IMG/VR virus record: IMGVR_UViG_3300048928_000592
Location: 1-38,210 of that record
Source of the DNA: a virus
Length of the DNA stretch: 38,210 nucleotides
Direction: 5' to 3' (one strand)
Below, in pieces: positions 4,838 to 36,641 of this stretch. Under the pieces are notes generated by a model that made no database searches, was not told the origin of the DNA, and saw only the letters and a list, made by a program, of their open reading frames with translations. A program made the position numbers and the translations under genes. Within the stretch, counting starts at the first letter, position 1, and each line of letters opens with the position of its first letter.

Positions 4838-5998
4838 TCACACCCCCAGGATCAGATCAGCATTGACGTGCGGCACGCCGAGAGCCGCGGCGTGGTTCAT
4901 GGCGGCCGTCAGCGCGTTCTGGACGGCGAGCGGATACAGCAGCGATCCGCTACCGCGCGGCGGTGTCAGCTTTGAGCGCAAGGCGTCCGCGGCGCCCTTT
5001 GCCATCACATGGTCGAGCGCGATGCCGGCACACTTGAAGCGATGCGACAGGAACGCCTCCAGGTCGGAGTCCAGCGTTCCGACCTCGATCACTTCGATGC
5101 GTTGCACGACCTCGCGCACTTCCGGGTTGTGCTCGCTGAGCCTGGTCTTCAGTTCCGGCTGACCGATCAGAACCACCGACAACAGGGGCCGCAGGCCATC
5201 CTTGAGCTCGCGGAAGCGCTTCAGGTGCTTGAGCGTAGCCAGAGGCATTGAGTGCGCCTCTTCGATGATCAGCACATGGCTGTGGCCGGCCCGCGAGCTA
5301 TCGCGCAGCGAGGCATGCAGTTGCGCAAAGCGCGCCTCCGGGCTGCTCTTGACCTTCGCCAGGGGATTGACCTGAGACATGATCGCCTCAGCGATGTGCT
5401 GCGCCTTTAGCGTCTTGCCGACCTGGTCGTTGCCCTCCATCGCCAGCACGAAGGGCTGGATCACGATCACCGCCTGCTCCTCGCGCCGGATGCGGTCGAT
5501 CAGCTCCTCGCGCAGCGTGCTTTTGCCGCCGCCGCTTTCGCCGATAACGGCCAGGAAGCCGCCATGACGGGCGACCTGGTACATGGTCTCTCGGACATAC
5601 CTGATGTCTTTGGACAGAAACACCTCTTCGGCGGCCGCCGGGTCGGCGAACGGGTCACGGCTCAGGCCGAAATGCTGCCGGGCGGCCGGCGTCAGGGTCT
5701 GCTTTCGCAGTAGCATGGAAATCTCCTCCTGGTCTTTTGCAGGGTTGGGCGGGGAAAACGGCTCCGCCGTGTTGACGCACGGCGGAGCCACTTCGAATAG
5801 GCCGGCGGTTTTCGCGCCGTGCCCACGGACGAACTTCGTGATGCGGGCCTCGACCGCTGCGCGGTCGACACCGAGCGGCAGTACGCCGCGATTGATGAAA
5901 GCGTTCAGAGCCGGGCGCGAAATGCCGGCAGCGGCGGCCAGCGCGCCCTGCCTTATCTGCGCAGTCGTCAGCACCGTCTTGAGGCGGAGGGCAGTCAT
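4838..5998 (-). CDS. B: Transposition ATPase B (MuB-like, AAA)
   Basis: 386-aa AAA ATPase that, as MuB does, is expected to coat target DNA, deliver target sites to the transposase and stimulate it. Walker A is GESGGGKST at residues 153-161, Walker B LIIEE at 243-247, and a sensor-1-like SVVLIGQ at 274-280; VVQRIEV around 297-303 supplies a likely arginine finger. The N-terminus (about 1-55) has a helix-turn-helix-like segment (QIRQGALAAAAGISRPALNAFI), matching the N-terminal DNA-binding part of MuB. It is longer than MuB (312 aa), mostly through the linker between residues 60 and 100. The ATG overlaps the transposase stop (ATGA), as expected for a coupled A-B pair. Confidence 0.93.
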   Translation of the reverse strand: MTALRLKTVLTTAQIRQGALAAAAGISRPALNAFINRGVLPLGVDRAAVEARITKFVRGHGAKTAGLFEVAPPCVNTAEPFSPPNPAKDQEEISMLLRKQTLTPAARQHFGLSRDPFADPAAAEEVFLSKDIRYVRETMYQVARHGGFLAVIGESGGGKSTLREELIDRIRREEQAVIVIQPFVLAMEGNDQVGKTLKAQHIAEAIMSQVNPLAKVKSSPEARFAQLHASLRDSSRAGHSHVLIIEEAHSMPLATLKHLKRFRELKDGLRPLLSVVLIGQPELKTRLSEHNPEVREVVQRIEVIEVGTLDSDLEAFLSHRFKCAGIALDHVMAKGAADALRSKLTPPRGSGSLLYPLAVQNALTAAMNHAAALGVPHVNADLILGV

Positions 5999-13106: not shown

Positions 13107-13414
13107 TGACGGTGGACATGGAGAAGGTGCGTCGGGAATCGATTCGGTGGACGATCCTGCTGACGCTGAACAACGCGCGGCCGTTCGGCGCCTACGAGGA
13201 ACTGGTGCTGTCCACGCTGCAGGCGGTGTACCCGGATGCGACCGCACTGGAGACCAGGCGCGAGCTCGACTACCTGGAGGACCGCCGCACGATCACGTTG
13301 CGCCGCGAGCCCAGCGGACGCTGGCATGCCGAGCTGACGCGCCTTGGAGTCGACATCGCCGAGTACACGGTCGACTGCGATGCCGGCATCGCGCGGCCGA
13401 CGAAGTATTGGTGA
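13106..13414 (+). CDS. Mu gp26-like protein (winged-helix-like)
   Basis: 102-aa protein like Mu gp26 in size, position and sequence pattern: RRESIRWTILLTLNNARPFG, then ALETRRELDYLEDRRTITL and RWHAELTRLGVDIAEYTVDC. The pattern resembles a winged helix. It precedes the gp27-like protein as in Mu, where the two are thought to take part in DNA packaging. The ATG shares its first base with the end of the previous gene. Confidence 0.8.
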   Translation: MTVDMEKVRRESIRWTILLTLNNARPFGAYEELVLSTLQAVYPDATALETRRELDYLEDRRTITLRREPSGRWHAELTRLGVDIAEYTVDCDAGIARPTKYW

Positions 13415-13418
13415 CGAA

Positions 13419-13967
13419 ATGGGCCGCCGCTCCAAGATCGAAAAGCTGCCGGATACGGTACGCACCGAGATCGATCGCCTGCTGATCAAGGCCGGCTTCT
13501 CTGGTTACGAATGGCTGGTGGACCAGATCCGGGACGAACTCGGTGTGGACCCGGGCGAGAAGTCCAGCGTCCAGCGCTATGGCAGCAAGCTGCAGCGCCG
13601 TCTCGCCGCTGTGAAGGCCAGCACTGATGCGGCGCGCATGATCGCGGAGGCCGCCCCGGACGAAGCCGACGAGCGCTCGAACGCGATCATCAGCCTGGTG
13701 CAGACCGAGATCTTCGACAGCCTCCTCGCCATGCAGGAGGCCGAAGAAGAAGCGAACCCGGCGAAGCGCGTCGAGATGCTCGGCAAGGCCGCCAAGAACA
13801 TCGCCACCCTCACGCGCGCCAGCGTGGCGCGTCACAAATGGGCGTCGGAGGTGCGTGCACGCATCGAGGCGGCGCTCGCCAAGCTCAAGCAGCAGGGCAT
13901 GGACGGCGCCACGCTCGATGCCGTCCAGAGCCAGATCAGCATCTACCTGCCCGCCAACAACCGCTAG
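13419..13967 (+). CDS. DUF3486 family protein (Mu gp27-like, probable small terminase)
   Basis: 182-aa protein of the DUF3486/gp27 family. The start MGRRSKIEKLPDTVRTEIDRLL and the following YEWLVDQIRDELG form the typical N-terminal HTH-like part that recognises DNA; a long helical body follows. It is placed before the large terminase and is the likely small terminase subunit, which chooses packaging sites at the phage end. ATG at 13419 lies five bases after the gp26-like stop. Confidence 0.85.
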   Translation: MGRRSKIEKLPDTVRTEIDRLLIKAGFSGYEWLVDQIRDELGVDPGEKSSVQRYGSKLQRRLAAVKASTDAARMIAEAAPDEADERSNAIISLVQTEIFDSLLAMQEAEEEANPAKRVEMLGKAAKNIATLTRASVARHKWASEVRARIEAALAKLKQQGMDGATLDAVQSQISIYLPANNR

Positions 13968-13977
13968 GAGCCACACA

Positions 13978-14202
13978 ATGGAAAACCAGCACCGCAAGAT
14001 CTCGGGTTACCGCGAGTTGACCGAGGCCGAGATCGCGCTCATGAACGAGATCAAGGCGCAGGGTGCCCAGCTGAAGGAGCTGCACGCCAAGGTGATCTCT
14101 ACGCCCGGCATCGACGCCCGGGCCGCGGCGATCGCCGGAACCGACCTGCAGACCGGCCTGATGTGGCTGACGCGTGCTGTCGCTCGTCCCGAGGGTTTCT
14201 GA
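13978..14202 (+). CDS. acb2: Acb2-type anti-CBASS protein (cyclic-nucleotide sponge)
   Basis: 74-aa protein that I recognise as an Acb2/Tad1-domain protein. Known members from Pseudomonas transposable phages form hexamers that bind cyclic di- and trinucleotides and so block CBASS signalling. Visible signatures are the N-terminal KISGYRELTEAEIALMNEIK block, and the C-terminal AIAGTDLQTGLMWLTRAVARPEGF-type block (given here in parts: GTDLQTGLMWLTRAV, then ARPEGF). Tyr11 and Lys26, the residue numbers I recall as needed for cGAMP binding in the PaMx33 protein, are both present at those positions. AGGAG lies eight bases before the ATG. The gene sits between the gp27-like and large terminase genes. 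It is somewhat shorter than the better-known members, with a short central linker. Confidence 0.82.
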   Translation: MENQHRKISGYRELTEAEIALMNEIKAQGAQLKELHAKVISTPGIDARAAAIAGTDLQTGLMWLTRAVARPEGF

Positions 14203-14211
14203 TCCCTCACC

Positions 14212-15666
14212 ATGAGCGTCCAGCAGATCCGGCCACAGCCCGGGCCCCAAGAACAGTTCCTCGCGTCCCCAGCGGACATCGTCTTCTACGGTGGCGCGGC
14301 CTTCGGCGGCAAGACATACGCCTTGCTCCTCGAAGCCGTGCGCCACACGGAGAACGCGCGCTTCGGCGGGGTGATCTTTCGTCGCACCACGAAGCAGGTG
14401 ACGGCGGAAGGCGGTCTGTGGGACACGTCCGAGGAGATCTATCCGGCGCTTGGTGCGAAGTCGAACTTGTCGCGCCTGCAGTGGGCTTTTCCGGCAGGGG
14501 CGACGCTGACCTTCGCGCACCTCGAACATGAGAAGAACAAGTTCGACTGGCAGGGCTCACAGATCGCCTTCATCGGATTCGATGAGGTCACGCATTTCAC
14601 CGAGGGGCAGTTCTGGTACATGCTCAGCCGCAACCGCTCGACGAGCGGAGTGCGGCCCTACGTACGAGCGACCTGCAATCCTGATCCCGACAGCTGGGTC
14701 GCCAAGTTCATCGCCTGGTGGATCGACCAGGAGACGGGTTACGCGATTCCCGAGCGGTCCGGTGTCATCCGCTACTTCATTCGGCGGAACAACGAAATCC
14801 TCTGGGCGGACAGCCCGGAGCAACTGGCGGAGCAGTATCCCGGCGCGCAGCCCAAGAGCTGCACCTTCATCGCATCGTCTTTCCAGGACAACAAGCTGGG
14901 CCTGGAGCGCGACCCGGGCTATCTCGCCAACCTGGAGGCATTGCCCACGGTAGAGCGCGAGCGCCTCAAGATGGGCAACTGGAAGGTGAAGCCTGCTGCT
15001 GGCGATTATTTCAAGAAGAGCTATTTCCCGATCGTGGACGCGGCGCCGGCACTCGGCCAGCGGATTCGTTACTGGGATCGCGCAGCTACGGAGCCGAGCG
15101 AGTCGAATGCAGATCCTGACTGGACCGCAGGCGTGCGCGCGAGCCTGGCCGCGGACGGTTACGTGTACATCGAGCATGTGGAGCGCTTCCGCGGCACGCC
15201 TGGCAAGGTCGCCAAGCGCATCCGCGCGACGGCTGAGCAGGACGGACGAACCATTTCCGTGGGCATCGAGCAAGATCCTGGTCAGGCCGGCAAGTTCGAG
15301 GCGGAGACGTACGTCAGCCTGCTCCTGGGCTTCGTCGTTTTTACCGTGCCCCCGCAGGGCGACAAGGAGACTCGCGCCACCCCTGCCTCCACCGCAGCGG
15401 AACATGGCCGCATCCGACTCGTTCGCGGCGCTTGGAACGACGCGTTCCTCGACGAGCTGGAGAGTTTTCCCAAGGGTGCCCATGACGACCAGGTCGACGG
15501 CTTGTCCGGCGCTTACAACCAGCTGATCGGCAATCCCCGCATCCCCTTCGAATTTCAATCGACAGGTCAGCGCCTGATGGCGGTGGACACGATCGGTGCA
15601 GGTATCAACGACACGGGCTTCGGCAGTGTGCCGGGCGGCAACGACTTTGAAGGGTTTGGCACATGA
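14212..15666 (+). CDS. Large terminase subunit
   Basis: 484-aa packaging motor. The N-terminal ATPase has a Walker A-like GGAAFGGKT at residues 27-35 and Walker B IAFIGFDE at 118-125, with a C-motif-like TCNPDPDSW near 155-165. The nuclease domain starts near 280 with YWDRAATE, continues with GIEQDPGQAG and ends with the conserved DDQVDGLSGAYNQL. The sequence is closer to the terminase_6/RNaseH-type terminases of siphophages than to Mu gp28, so this module is probably mosaic. It pumps phage DNA, with attached host DNA, into the head in a headful fashion. The stop overlaps the portal ATG. Confidence 0.93.
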   Translation: MSVQQIRPQPGPQEQFLASPADIVFYGGAAFGGKTYALLLEAVRHTENARFGGVIFRRTTKQVTAEGGLWDTSEEIYPALGAKSNLSRLQWAFPAGATLTFAHLEHEKNKFDWQGSQIAFIGFDEVTHFTEGQFWYMLSRNRSTSGVRPYVRATCNPDPDSWVAKFIAWWIDQETGYAIPERSGVIRYFIRRNNEILWADSPEQLAEQYPGAQPKSCTFIASSFQDNKLGLERDPGYLANLEALPTVERERLKMGNWKVKPAAGDYFKKSYFPIVDAAPALGQRIRYWDRAATEPSESNADPDWTAGVRASLAADGYVYIEHVERFRGTPGKVAKRIRATAEQDGRTISVGIEQDPGQAGKFEAETYVSLLLGFVVFTVPPQGDKETRATPASTAAEHGRIRLVRGAWNDAFLDELESFPKGAHDDQVDGLSGAYNQLIGNPRIPFEFQSTGQRLMAVDTIGAGINDTGFGSVPGGNDFEGFGT

Positions 15667-17141
15667 GCGATGAGATGGCTGACAACAAGCCCCAAGTGAA
15701 TCGCGAGATCGCGACGACGGCGGATGGCATCGACATCACCCGGGGATACATCGGCCCGCTGCTGACACCCTATGACAGCGTGCTGCGCAACCGCGGCGCT
15801 GATCTGACGCTCTACGAACAGGTGCTGTCCGATCCGGAGGTGAAGGCAACCTTGGGCCAGCGCCAGCTTGCGGTTACGCAGTGCGAATGGCAGGTCGATG
15901 CCGGCGGCAAGCGCGCAATCGATAAGGCCGCCGCTGACTTCATGCGTGACCAGATCAATGCGATCGGCTGGGACAGCATCACGACCAAGATGCTCTTCGG
16001 CGTGTTCTACGGCTACAGCGTGGCCGAGCTCATCTACGAGGTGCAGGGTCGCTACGTCGGTATCAAGCAGCTGAAGGTCCGCAATCGGCGCCGGTTCCGG
16101 TTCGGAAAGGAAATGGATCTGCGCCTGCTGACCTACAGCAACATGCTGGAAGGCATCCCGGCAGAGCCGCCCTACTTCTGGACGTTCAACACTGGCGCCG
16201 ACAACGACGACGAACCCTATGGCCTCGGGCTGGCGCACTGGCTGTACTGGCCGGTGCTTTTCAAGCGTAACGGCATCAAGTTCTGGCTGATCTTCCTGGA
16301 GAAGTTCGGCATGCCGACGGGCGTGGGCCGGTACGACACCAACGCGACCGAGACCGAGAAGTCCAAGCTCCTGCAGGCTGTGCGCGCCATCCAGACCGAT
16401 AGCGGCATCATCATTCCCAAGGGCATGGAGATCGACTTGCTCGAAGCTGCCCGAAACGGCACCAGCGATTACAAGACCCTTCACGACACGATGGACGCGA
16501 CGATCCAGAAGGTCGTCCTCGGCCAAACCGCGAGTACCCAGGGCACTCCCGGGCGCCTGGGCAACGATAAGCTGCAGGGCGACGTGCGCGCGGACATCAT
16601 CAAGGCCGACGCGGATCTCGTATGCGAGTCCTGGAATCTCGGCCCGGCCCGCTGGCTGACGAAGTGGAACTTCCCCGGCGCAGTCCCGCCACGCGTCTAT
16701 CGCGTCACGGCCGAGCCTGAAGATCTGACCCAGCGTGCTGATCGGGACACGAAGATCAAGGGGCTCGGCTATCGGCCCACGCTGGCCTACATCAACACCA
16801 CCTACGGCGACGGGTGGGAGCAGGACACGCCACCACCGCCTGGTGGCCCGGAGTTGACCACGACAGGCGTCGCGTTCGCCGAGCCTTCCTTAGTGGGGGA
16901 CGACCCAGCCGCAGCGATCGCAGCGGCGCTGGACGCGTCGGGCCAGCCGCAGATCGATGCCTGGGCGGGCAAGCTCGCCGCAATGGCGGAGAAGGCTACA
17001 TCGCTGCCCGAGCTGCGCGAGATGATCCTCGCGGCCTACGATGGCCTCAGTGCCGACGAGCTCGCCGCGGCGCTCGGATCTGCAATGCAGGCCGCGCAGG
17101 CAGCAGGCCGCTACGACCTGGTCGAACAGTCCAATGGCTGA
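15663..17141 (+). CDS. DUF935 portal protein (Mu gp29-like)
   Basis: 492-aa portal protein of the DUF935 family. The conserved blocks are LYEQVLSDPEVKATLGQRQLAV, the YGYSVAELIYE region near residue 120, RNRRRFRF, PYGLGLAHWLYWPVLFKRNGIKFW and FGMPTGVGRYD (each family-typical). The portal forms the dodecameric vertex ring for DNA entry and exit and binds the terminase. The C-terminal 100 residues are Ala-rich and less conserved. It overlaps the F gene by eight bases, and the terminase gene by ATGA. Confidence 0.93.
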   Translation: MSDEMADNKPQVNREIATTADGIDITRGYIGPLLTPYDSVLRNRGADLTLYEQVLSDPEVKATLGQRQLAVTQCEWQVDAGGKRAIDKAAADFMRDQINAIGWDSITTKMLFGVFYGYSVAELIYEVQGRYVGIKQLKVRNRRRFRFGKEMDLRLLTYSNMLEGIPAEPPYFWTFNTGADNDDEPYGLGLAHWLYWPVLFKRNGIKFWLIFLEKFGMPTGVGRYDTNATETEKSKLLQAVRAIQTDSGIIIPKGMEIDLLEAARNGTSDYKTLHDTMDATIQKVVLGQTASTQGTPGRLGNDKLQGDVRADIIKADADLVCESWNLGPARWLTKWNFPGAVPPRVYRVTAEPEDLTQRADRDTKIKGLGYRPTLAYINTTYGDGWEQDTPPPPGGPELTTTGVAFAEPSLVGDDPAAAIAAALDASGQPQIDAWAGKLAAMAEKATSLPELREMILAAYDGLSADELAAALGSAMQAAQAAGRYDLVEQSNG

Positions 17142-35725: not shown

Positions 35726-35838
35726 CCGGGCTGTTGGAGCAGCCCGGCCCTCTCCACGGAACAGGACGTGGATCGGCGAGACCCCTAGCGACGCGTCGCG
35801 GGGTGAAGCCTAAACACCTTCGTTCTCAGATGTGGAGA
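35726..35838 (+). promoter_or_regulatory. Structured leader upstream of the adenine methylase gene
   Basis: Three hairpins in a row: 35726-35747 (CCGGGCTG/CAGCCCGG, loop TTGGAG), 35754-35771 (CCACG/CGTGG, 8-nt loop), 35781-35804 (ACCCC/GGGGT with inner GCGACG/CGTCGC, TA bulge). TCTCCAC at 35751-35757 is exactly complementary to GTGGAGA at 35832-35838, which contains the methylase ribosome-binding site; this pairing excludes hairpin 2. The first hairpin may also act as terminator of the tail operon although no T-run follows. Function is inference. Confidence 0.5.
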
Positions 35839-35846
35839 CAGCACCG

Positions 35847-36641
35847 ATGGCCATGCCCATCATTCCCTGGCTCGGTGGCAAGCGCCGCCTGGCCGACCGG
35901 ATCTTCAAGTTCTTTGACAACCAGCACACCTGCTACGTCGAACCCTTTGCCGGCGGCGCGGCGCTGTTCTTCATGAAGGCGCCCACCGATGTCGAGGTGC
36001 TCAACGACGTCAACGGCGAGCTGATCAACCTCTATCGCGTCGTGCAGAACCACCTGGAGGAGTTCGTCCGGCAGTTCAAATGGGCGCTGTCGAGCCGCAA
36101 GGTGTTCGAGTGGCAGAAGATGACCAGGCCGGAGACGCTGACCGATATCCAGCGCGCGGCGCGCTTCTACTACCTGCAGCAATCGGCGTTCGGCGGGAAG
36201 ATCGAGGGCCAGACCTATGGCACCGCGACCACGCAGCCGCCGGGCCTGAACCTTCTGCGCATCGAGGAGACACTATCCGCCGCGCACCTGCGCCTCGCCA
36301 GCGCTTACATCGAGCATCTGCCCTGGCAGGAATGCGTGGCGAAGTACGACCGGACGCACACGCTGTTCTTCATGGACCCGCCGTATTGGGAGACCGAGGG
36401 GTACGGCGTCGACTTCGGATGGGACCAGTACCAGGCGCTGGAGGCGACGCTGGCCAGCCTCAAGGGTAGGGCGATCCTGACGCTCAACGATCACCCGGCG
36501 ATCCGGGAACTGTTCGCCCGGTTCCACATCGAGCGGGCAGACCATACCTATACGGTCGGTGGTGGCGCGAGGGCCAAGGATGTGGGCGAGGTGCTGATCT
36601 TCAGTTGGGATGTTCAGGCTCAGCCAGCGGGGCTGTTTTAG
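35847..36641 (+). CDS. dam: DNA adenine methylase (D12/Dam class)
   Basis: 264-aa N6-adenine DNA methyltransferase. Start 35847 has GGAGA eight bases upstream; an in-frame GTG at 35832 would overlap that site. Family motifs: PWLGGKRRL at residues 7-15, SAM-binding EPFAGGA at 32-38, LNDVNGELINLY at 52-63 and catalytic DPPY at 177-180. It should methylate phage and possibly host DNA at adenines, protecting it from restriction. It holds the right-end place of mom in Mu. The target sequence cannot be read from the protein; Dam (GATC) type is possible but not certain. Followed by a strong terminator. Confidence 0.92.
   Translation: MAMPIIPWLGGKRRLADRIFKFFDNQHTCYVEPFAGGAALFFMKAPTDVEVLNDVNGELINLYRVVQNHLEEFVRQFKWALSSRKVFEWQKMTRPETLTDIQRAARFYYLQQSAFGGKIEGQTYGTATTQPPGLNLLRIEETLSAAHLRLASAYIEHLPWQECVAKYDRTHTLFFMDPPYWETEGYGVDFGWDQYQALEATLASLKGRAILTLNDHPAIRELFARFHIERADHTYTVGGGARAKDVGEVLIFSWDVQAQPAGLF

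Follow-up and report, generated by a model that had tools for sequence, protein, structure and literature searches.

What a protein of 74 residues does between the two terminase genes of a phage, and how its gene came to lie there, are the questions raised by the 38,210-base viral record analysed here (referred to as the window). The gene, acb2, occupies positions 13978-14202 of the plus strand, from an ATG to a TGA codon. It encodes an ordinary member of the Acb2 (T4 Vs.4) family, whose expected function is that of a hexameric sponge for the cyclic nucleotides of CBASS; the probability of this reading is estimated to be about 0.88. The class, structure and mechanism of Acb2 have already been published, and the copy in the window is found in a slightly unusual place. 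The present analysis adds a compact Acb2 of modal length from a B3-like transposable phage, a variable acb2 site among related phages and the remnant of a deletion in a close relative.

The gene and its family

The reading frame is preceded at a distance of 7 nt by a Shine-Dalgarno-like AGGAG (13966-13970, plus strand), evident from direct reading, that overlaps the stop codon of the gene for the small terminase subunit (TerS). GC content by codon position (0.64/0.45/0.85, in a genome of 65% GC) follows a coding pattern. The Pfam model of the Acb2/Tad1 hairpin (PF24729) matches the protein over model positions 1-58 of 58 with an E-value of 1.2e-16 and 61 bits, the curated cut-off being 27 bits. 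The protein also matches PHROG 717 (E 1.1e-19), in which T4 Vs.4 has been placed (PMC10097602), and the Pseudomonas Acb2 chain 8h2j of the PDB (E 7.2e-13). Both motifs by which a preliminary description of this DNA had recognized the protein are present, together with Tyr11 and Lys26, and the identification as Acb2 is backed by PF24729, PHROG 717, solved Acb2 sequences, conserved residues and the predicted fold. No Rfam RNA or tRNA was found within the window.

In a tblastn search with the window protein, 228 of 50,697 phage records matched; among the matches listed, most were annotated as 'hypothetical protein' and some as 'NAD/FAD-utilizing enzyme'. The latter label, carried by Acb2 homologues of Pseudomonas phages (L002:4001-4288; H46-H48, H53, H57-H60), is misleading. 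The use of Acb2 across several lineages, as proposed in the preliminary description, is correct but not new, 198 Vs.4 homologues (PMC10097602) and a spread over 239 tailed phages (PMC12043709) having been reported. The window protein, whose other relatives are mostly proteobacterial, has a homologue of 60% identity on a contig assigned to a Clostridia MAG (L090:8001-8246), through either misbinning or transfer over a long distance. Several bacterial genomes (Xenorhabdus species, Microbulbifer) contain two acb2-like genes on separate contigs (L096/L097, L091/L092, L100/L110, L108/L111).

An alignment of 111 non-identical sequences comprised the window protein, T4 Vs.4 and 109 further homologues. 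Residues Y8, K23 and R79 of Vs.4, which were reported to contact cGAMP, with Y8 as the stacking tyrosine and K23 as the phosphate-binding lysine (PMC10097602), align with Y11, K26 and R66 of the window protein. Y11 and R66 are conserved in all 111 homologues and K26 in 109 of them. The Vs.4 interface residues L29, A66, A73 and A77 correspond to L32, A53, G60 and L64. The homologues range from 72 to 117 residues, and the commonest length is 74 (35/111), in a sample biased by the choice of loci according to their similarity to the window protein. The notion of an unusually short linker was therefore rejected; the length of the helix-helix connection varies by family habit and implies nothing about the choice of ligand.

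The terminase junction and its history

Upstream of acb2 lies the gene of a Mu Gp27-type TerS (13410-13967, plus strand, start codon approximate; PF11985, E 9.5e-38; PHROG 426), downstream that of the large terminase subunit, TerL (14212-15666, plus strand; PF03237, PF17289; PHROG 979, E 5e-169), followed by that of a Mu-type portal protein, Portal_Mu (15663-17141, plus strand; PF06074, E 9e-104). MuF, a neck protein, a protease and the major capsid protein (MCP) are also encoded nearby, and MuA- and MuB-like proteins are encoded on the opposite strand. Given the Mu-type late genes and the MuA/MuB-like proteins, the phage is a B3/Mu-like transposable phage. Its late region is homologous to those of Pseudomonas phages JBD67 and B3, Stenotrophomonas phages phiSHP3 and Bhz63, and Lsp-JY19. 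A different terminase type, which had been taken to set this phage apart from other carriers of acb2, was ruled out by the Mu Gp27-type TerS, by Portal_Mu and by the homology of the late genes to those of JBD67, B3 and phiSHP3; TerS, TerL and the portal protein have homologues in JBD67, which itself possesses acb2 (gp38). A D12-class N6-adenine DNA methyltransferase, possibly serving self-protection against host restriction, is encoded at 35832-36641 (PF02086, E 9e-27).

The position of acb2 between packaging genes, as first described, was confirmed, with all three genes on the same strand and gaps of 10 nt to TerS and 9 nt to TerL; a place among virion genes is, however, usual for acb2. A scan for sigma-70-type sites found no promoter-like site between 12700 and 14600, in keeping with joint transcription with the late genes. 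Transcription of acb2 together with the packaging and head genes is probable, such that the late expression proposed earlier is plausible.

A contig of 14.4 kb, L133, is nearly identical to the window in this region (TerS 99%, TerL 96%, portal 92%, MCP 93%) and contains no detectable acb2, although a copy may be present elsewhere in that phage. The alignment extends through the whole TerS stop codon, up to 13967, and restarts at 14189, inside the 3' end of acb2; the blastn blocks abut at 13967/14189 of the window and at 5309/5310 of L133, so that the interval 13968-14188 (plus strand) is absent from L133. The 24-nt gap between TerS and TerL of L133 (L133:5310-5333) begins with 14 nt (CCGAGCGTTTCTGA) that are identical in 13 of 14 positions to the last 14 nt of acb2 (CCGAGGGTTTCTGA; 14189-14202, plus strand). 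A match to acb2 as good as this did not arise in any of 2000 shuffled versions of the gap. In the more distant L134 and L135 (TerL 87-88%), TerS and TerL overlap in an ATGA without any gap, which suggests that the ancestral junction was empty.

The empty junction speaks for the possibility that L133 never possessed acb2 at this site and that the gene was inserted in the lineage of the window alone. The 14-nt remnant in the L133 gap, a match not reproduced by shuffling, argues against this possibility, which we regard as doubtful. In the simplest history, acb2 would have been gained at the TerS-TerL junction before the window and L133 diverged, after which 221 nt would have been deleted in the L133 line; this sequence of events explains both the remnant and the gapless junctions of L134 and L135. 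The gene was thus probably lost recently in the lineage of L133.

Sequestration of cyclic nucleotides by Acb2 is reported to trigger the Panoptes defence, from which T4 escapes through loss of acb2 (PMC12657218). The deletion in L133 would fit counter-selection by Panoptes. That acb2 is rapidly gained and lost in a single B3-like lineage, as CBASS rewards a sponge and Panoptes (OptSE) punishes it, is a speculative proposal and unlikely to be correct. Were it true, the window and L133 would represent a natural carrier/deletion pair of the CBASS-Panoptes conflict, with the gene re-entering the late operon elsewhere. The pair offers a natural before-and-after case of what selects for or against a cyclic-nucleotide sponge.

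The position of acb2 differs among related phages. In the window it lies between TerS and TerL; in JBD67, vB_Pae-SS2019XII, Lsp-JY19, L135 and Pseudomonas prophages between a gene following that of the MCP and the gene of the head-tail adaptor; in L007-L016 (those in which TerL was detected) and in L086 between TerL and the portal gene. The Luteimonas-type prophages L035, L038 and L089 carry it on the early side, in the orientation opposite to that of TerS. Searches of the whole records of phiSHP3 and Bhz63 did not reveal acb2. Outside the B3/Mu-like phages its neighbours are very mixed and include terminase, portal, ribonucleotide reductase, RecT and endolysin genes. A conserved association with terminase genes was sought in a PHROG scan of 64 upstream and 60 downstream neighbours, picked mechanically, and was not found; the PHROG 2 terminase accounted for 4 of the 64 upstream neighbours. 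To trace the host, TerL was searched for with a strict E-value limit. The family of the L121 genome (a Rubrivivax MAG; 401 genomes) gave one match of 52%, and the family of the L089 genome (Luteimonas; 297 genomes) gave none, not even in the genome of L089 itself.

Relocation of acb2 in the window from the site after the MCP gene is not supported by the Acb2 tree, which rests on 74 columns that resolve little. The best tree joins the window protein with that of L006 (support 85/92, below the starred level), whereas the proteins of L135 and Lsp-JY19, both encoded after the MCP gene, group together. With this moderate support, the tree suggests that acb2 in the window was gained separately from the copies after the MCP gene. 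The gene behaves as cargo that shifts position, and goes missing, among close relatives.

Predicted fold and probable function

The AlphaFold2 (AF2) monomer model, calculated from an alignment of 55 sequences, has a mean pLDDT of 91 and consists of a two-helix hairpin (helices 16-41 and 47-69). Two long antiparallel helices without a beta domain are the trait of the Acb2 protomer; the model of the 74-residue protein contains no predicted beta strand, nor does it display the short helix seen at the N terminus of solved Acb2. In a Foldseek search of the PDB, ranks 1 to 8 were taken up entirely by Acb2 and Vs.4, at probabilities of 0.98-1.00; the match after these had a probability of 0.13. VIA-align yielded Z values of 8.3, 7.9 and 7.9 for Vs.4 and Acb2, followed by 6.7; the top structural matches were 8h2j, 8h2x and 7uq2. 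The resemblance of the predicted monomer to Acb2 and Vs.4 backs the match in sequence but would not suffice by itself, since helical hairpins easily give middling structural scores.

Acb2 and Vs.4 hexamers hold cyclic dinucleotides between their protomers, Acb2 also trinucleotides, and CBASS effectors remain inactive through this binding (PMC10097602, PMC12043709, PMC12657218). An anti-CBASS sponge, as originally suggested, is the best inference for the window protein from its family membership. By analogy, the product would form a hexamer of two-helix hairpins that binds the cyclic dinucleotides, and possibly trinucleotides, synthesized by CBASS enzymes and keeps them from effectors such as CapV. 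With the effectors idle, the cell would stay alive until phage replication is complete. The hexamer, ligand binding, the anti-CBASS effect and late expression are all expectations derived from the family. In 6 of 30 genomes with related acb2 genes a SMODS (CD-NTase) match was found, a count that has no taxon-matched background and gives no support to a link with CBASS, although CBASS-free hosts are also those that such a phage can enter freely.

Residues H11, S74 and F82 of the Vs.4 pocket are replaced in the window protein by L14, L61 and A69, and for this reason its ligand range may differ from that of the T4 protein. A69 is present in 108 of the 111 homologues and also in JBD67; both L14 and A69 are found in nearly all of the homologue set. 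An alternative is a protein of the Acb2 fold whose ligand has been lost or altered and which is retained, for instance, for another cyclic nucleotide or as a packaging accessory. The location between packaging genes and the altered pocket residues speak for it, as does the terminase gene that directly precedes the acb2 of the nearest relative, L006 (69%). Arguing against it are the retention of Tyr11, Lys26 and Arg66 and the diversity of neighbours across the family, among them terminase, endolysin, RecT and ribonucleotide reductase genes. Furthermore, acb2 is not needed for packaging at the TerS-TerL junction, because L133, JBD67 and the Stenotrophomonas phages lack acb2 between TerS and TerL. 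The alternative is therefore quite improbable, and a CBASS sponge is the preferred reading.

Comparison with known systems

The window protein shares with Tad1, an antagonist of Thoeris, the two-helix hairpin family and PF24729, a model named for both Acb2 and Tad1, but Tad1 has an additional N-terminal domain, a four-stranded sheet ahead of the two helices (PMC12043709), for which the 74-residue protein provides no predicted strand, and since Acb2 and Vs.4 chains are its best matches in both sequence and fold, a Tad1-type sponge is hardly credible.

The closest homologue found is the Acb2 of L006 (IMGVR_UViG_3300020598_000001), which is 69% identical over 74 residues and of the same length. 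The L006 phage is unrelated to that of the window, its terminase being of another type (PHROG 2) and its head-tail adaptor belonging to PHROG 332; its terminase gene lies directly before acb2 (L006:2235-4225). T4 Vs.4 (7uq2) has the same fold (VIA-align Z 8.3, 2.9 Å over 70 residues) and the three equivalent cGAMP-contact residues; it differs from the window protein in its sequence (about 30% identity), in the three pocket residues named above and in the location of its gene within a cluster of small vs genes.

The Acb2 proteins of Pseudomonas phages (8h2j, 8h2x, 8ixz; JBD67 gp38) have in common with the window protein the N-terminal NQH-K-I-x-GYR motif, Tyr11, Lys26, the T-D-x-Q-T-G motif, the C-terminal R-A-x-A-x-P and the predicted hairpin. 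They comprise about 93 or 108 residues, whereas the window protein has 74 and a shorter connection between the helices. In JBD67, acb2 is flanked by gp37 and the gene of the head-tail adaptor, in the window by TerS and TerL.
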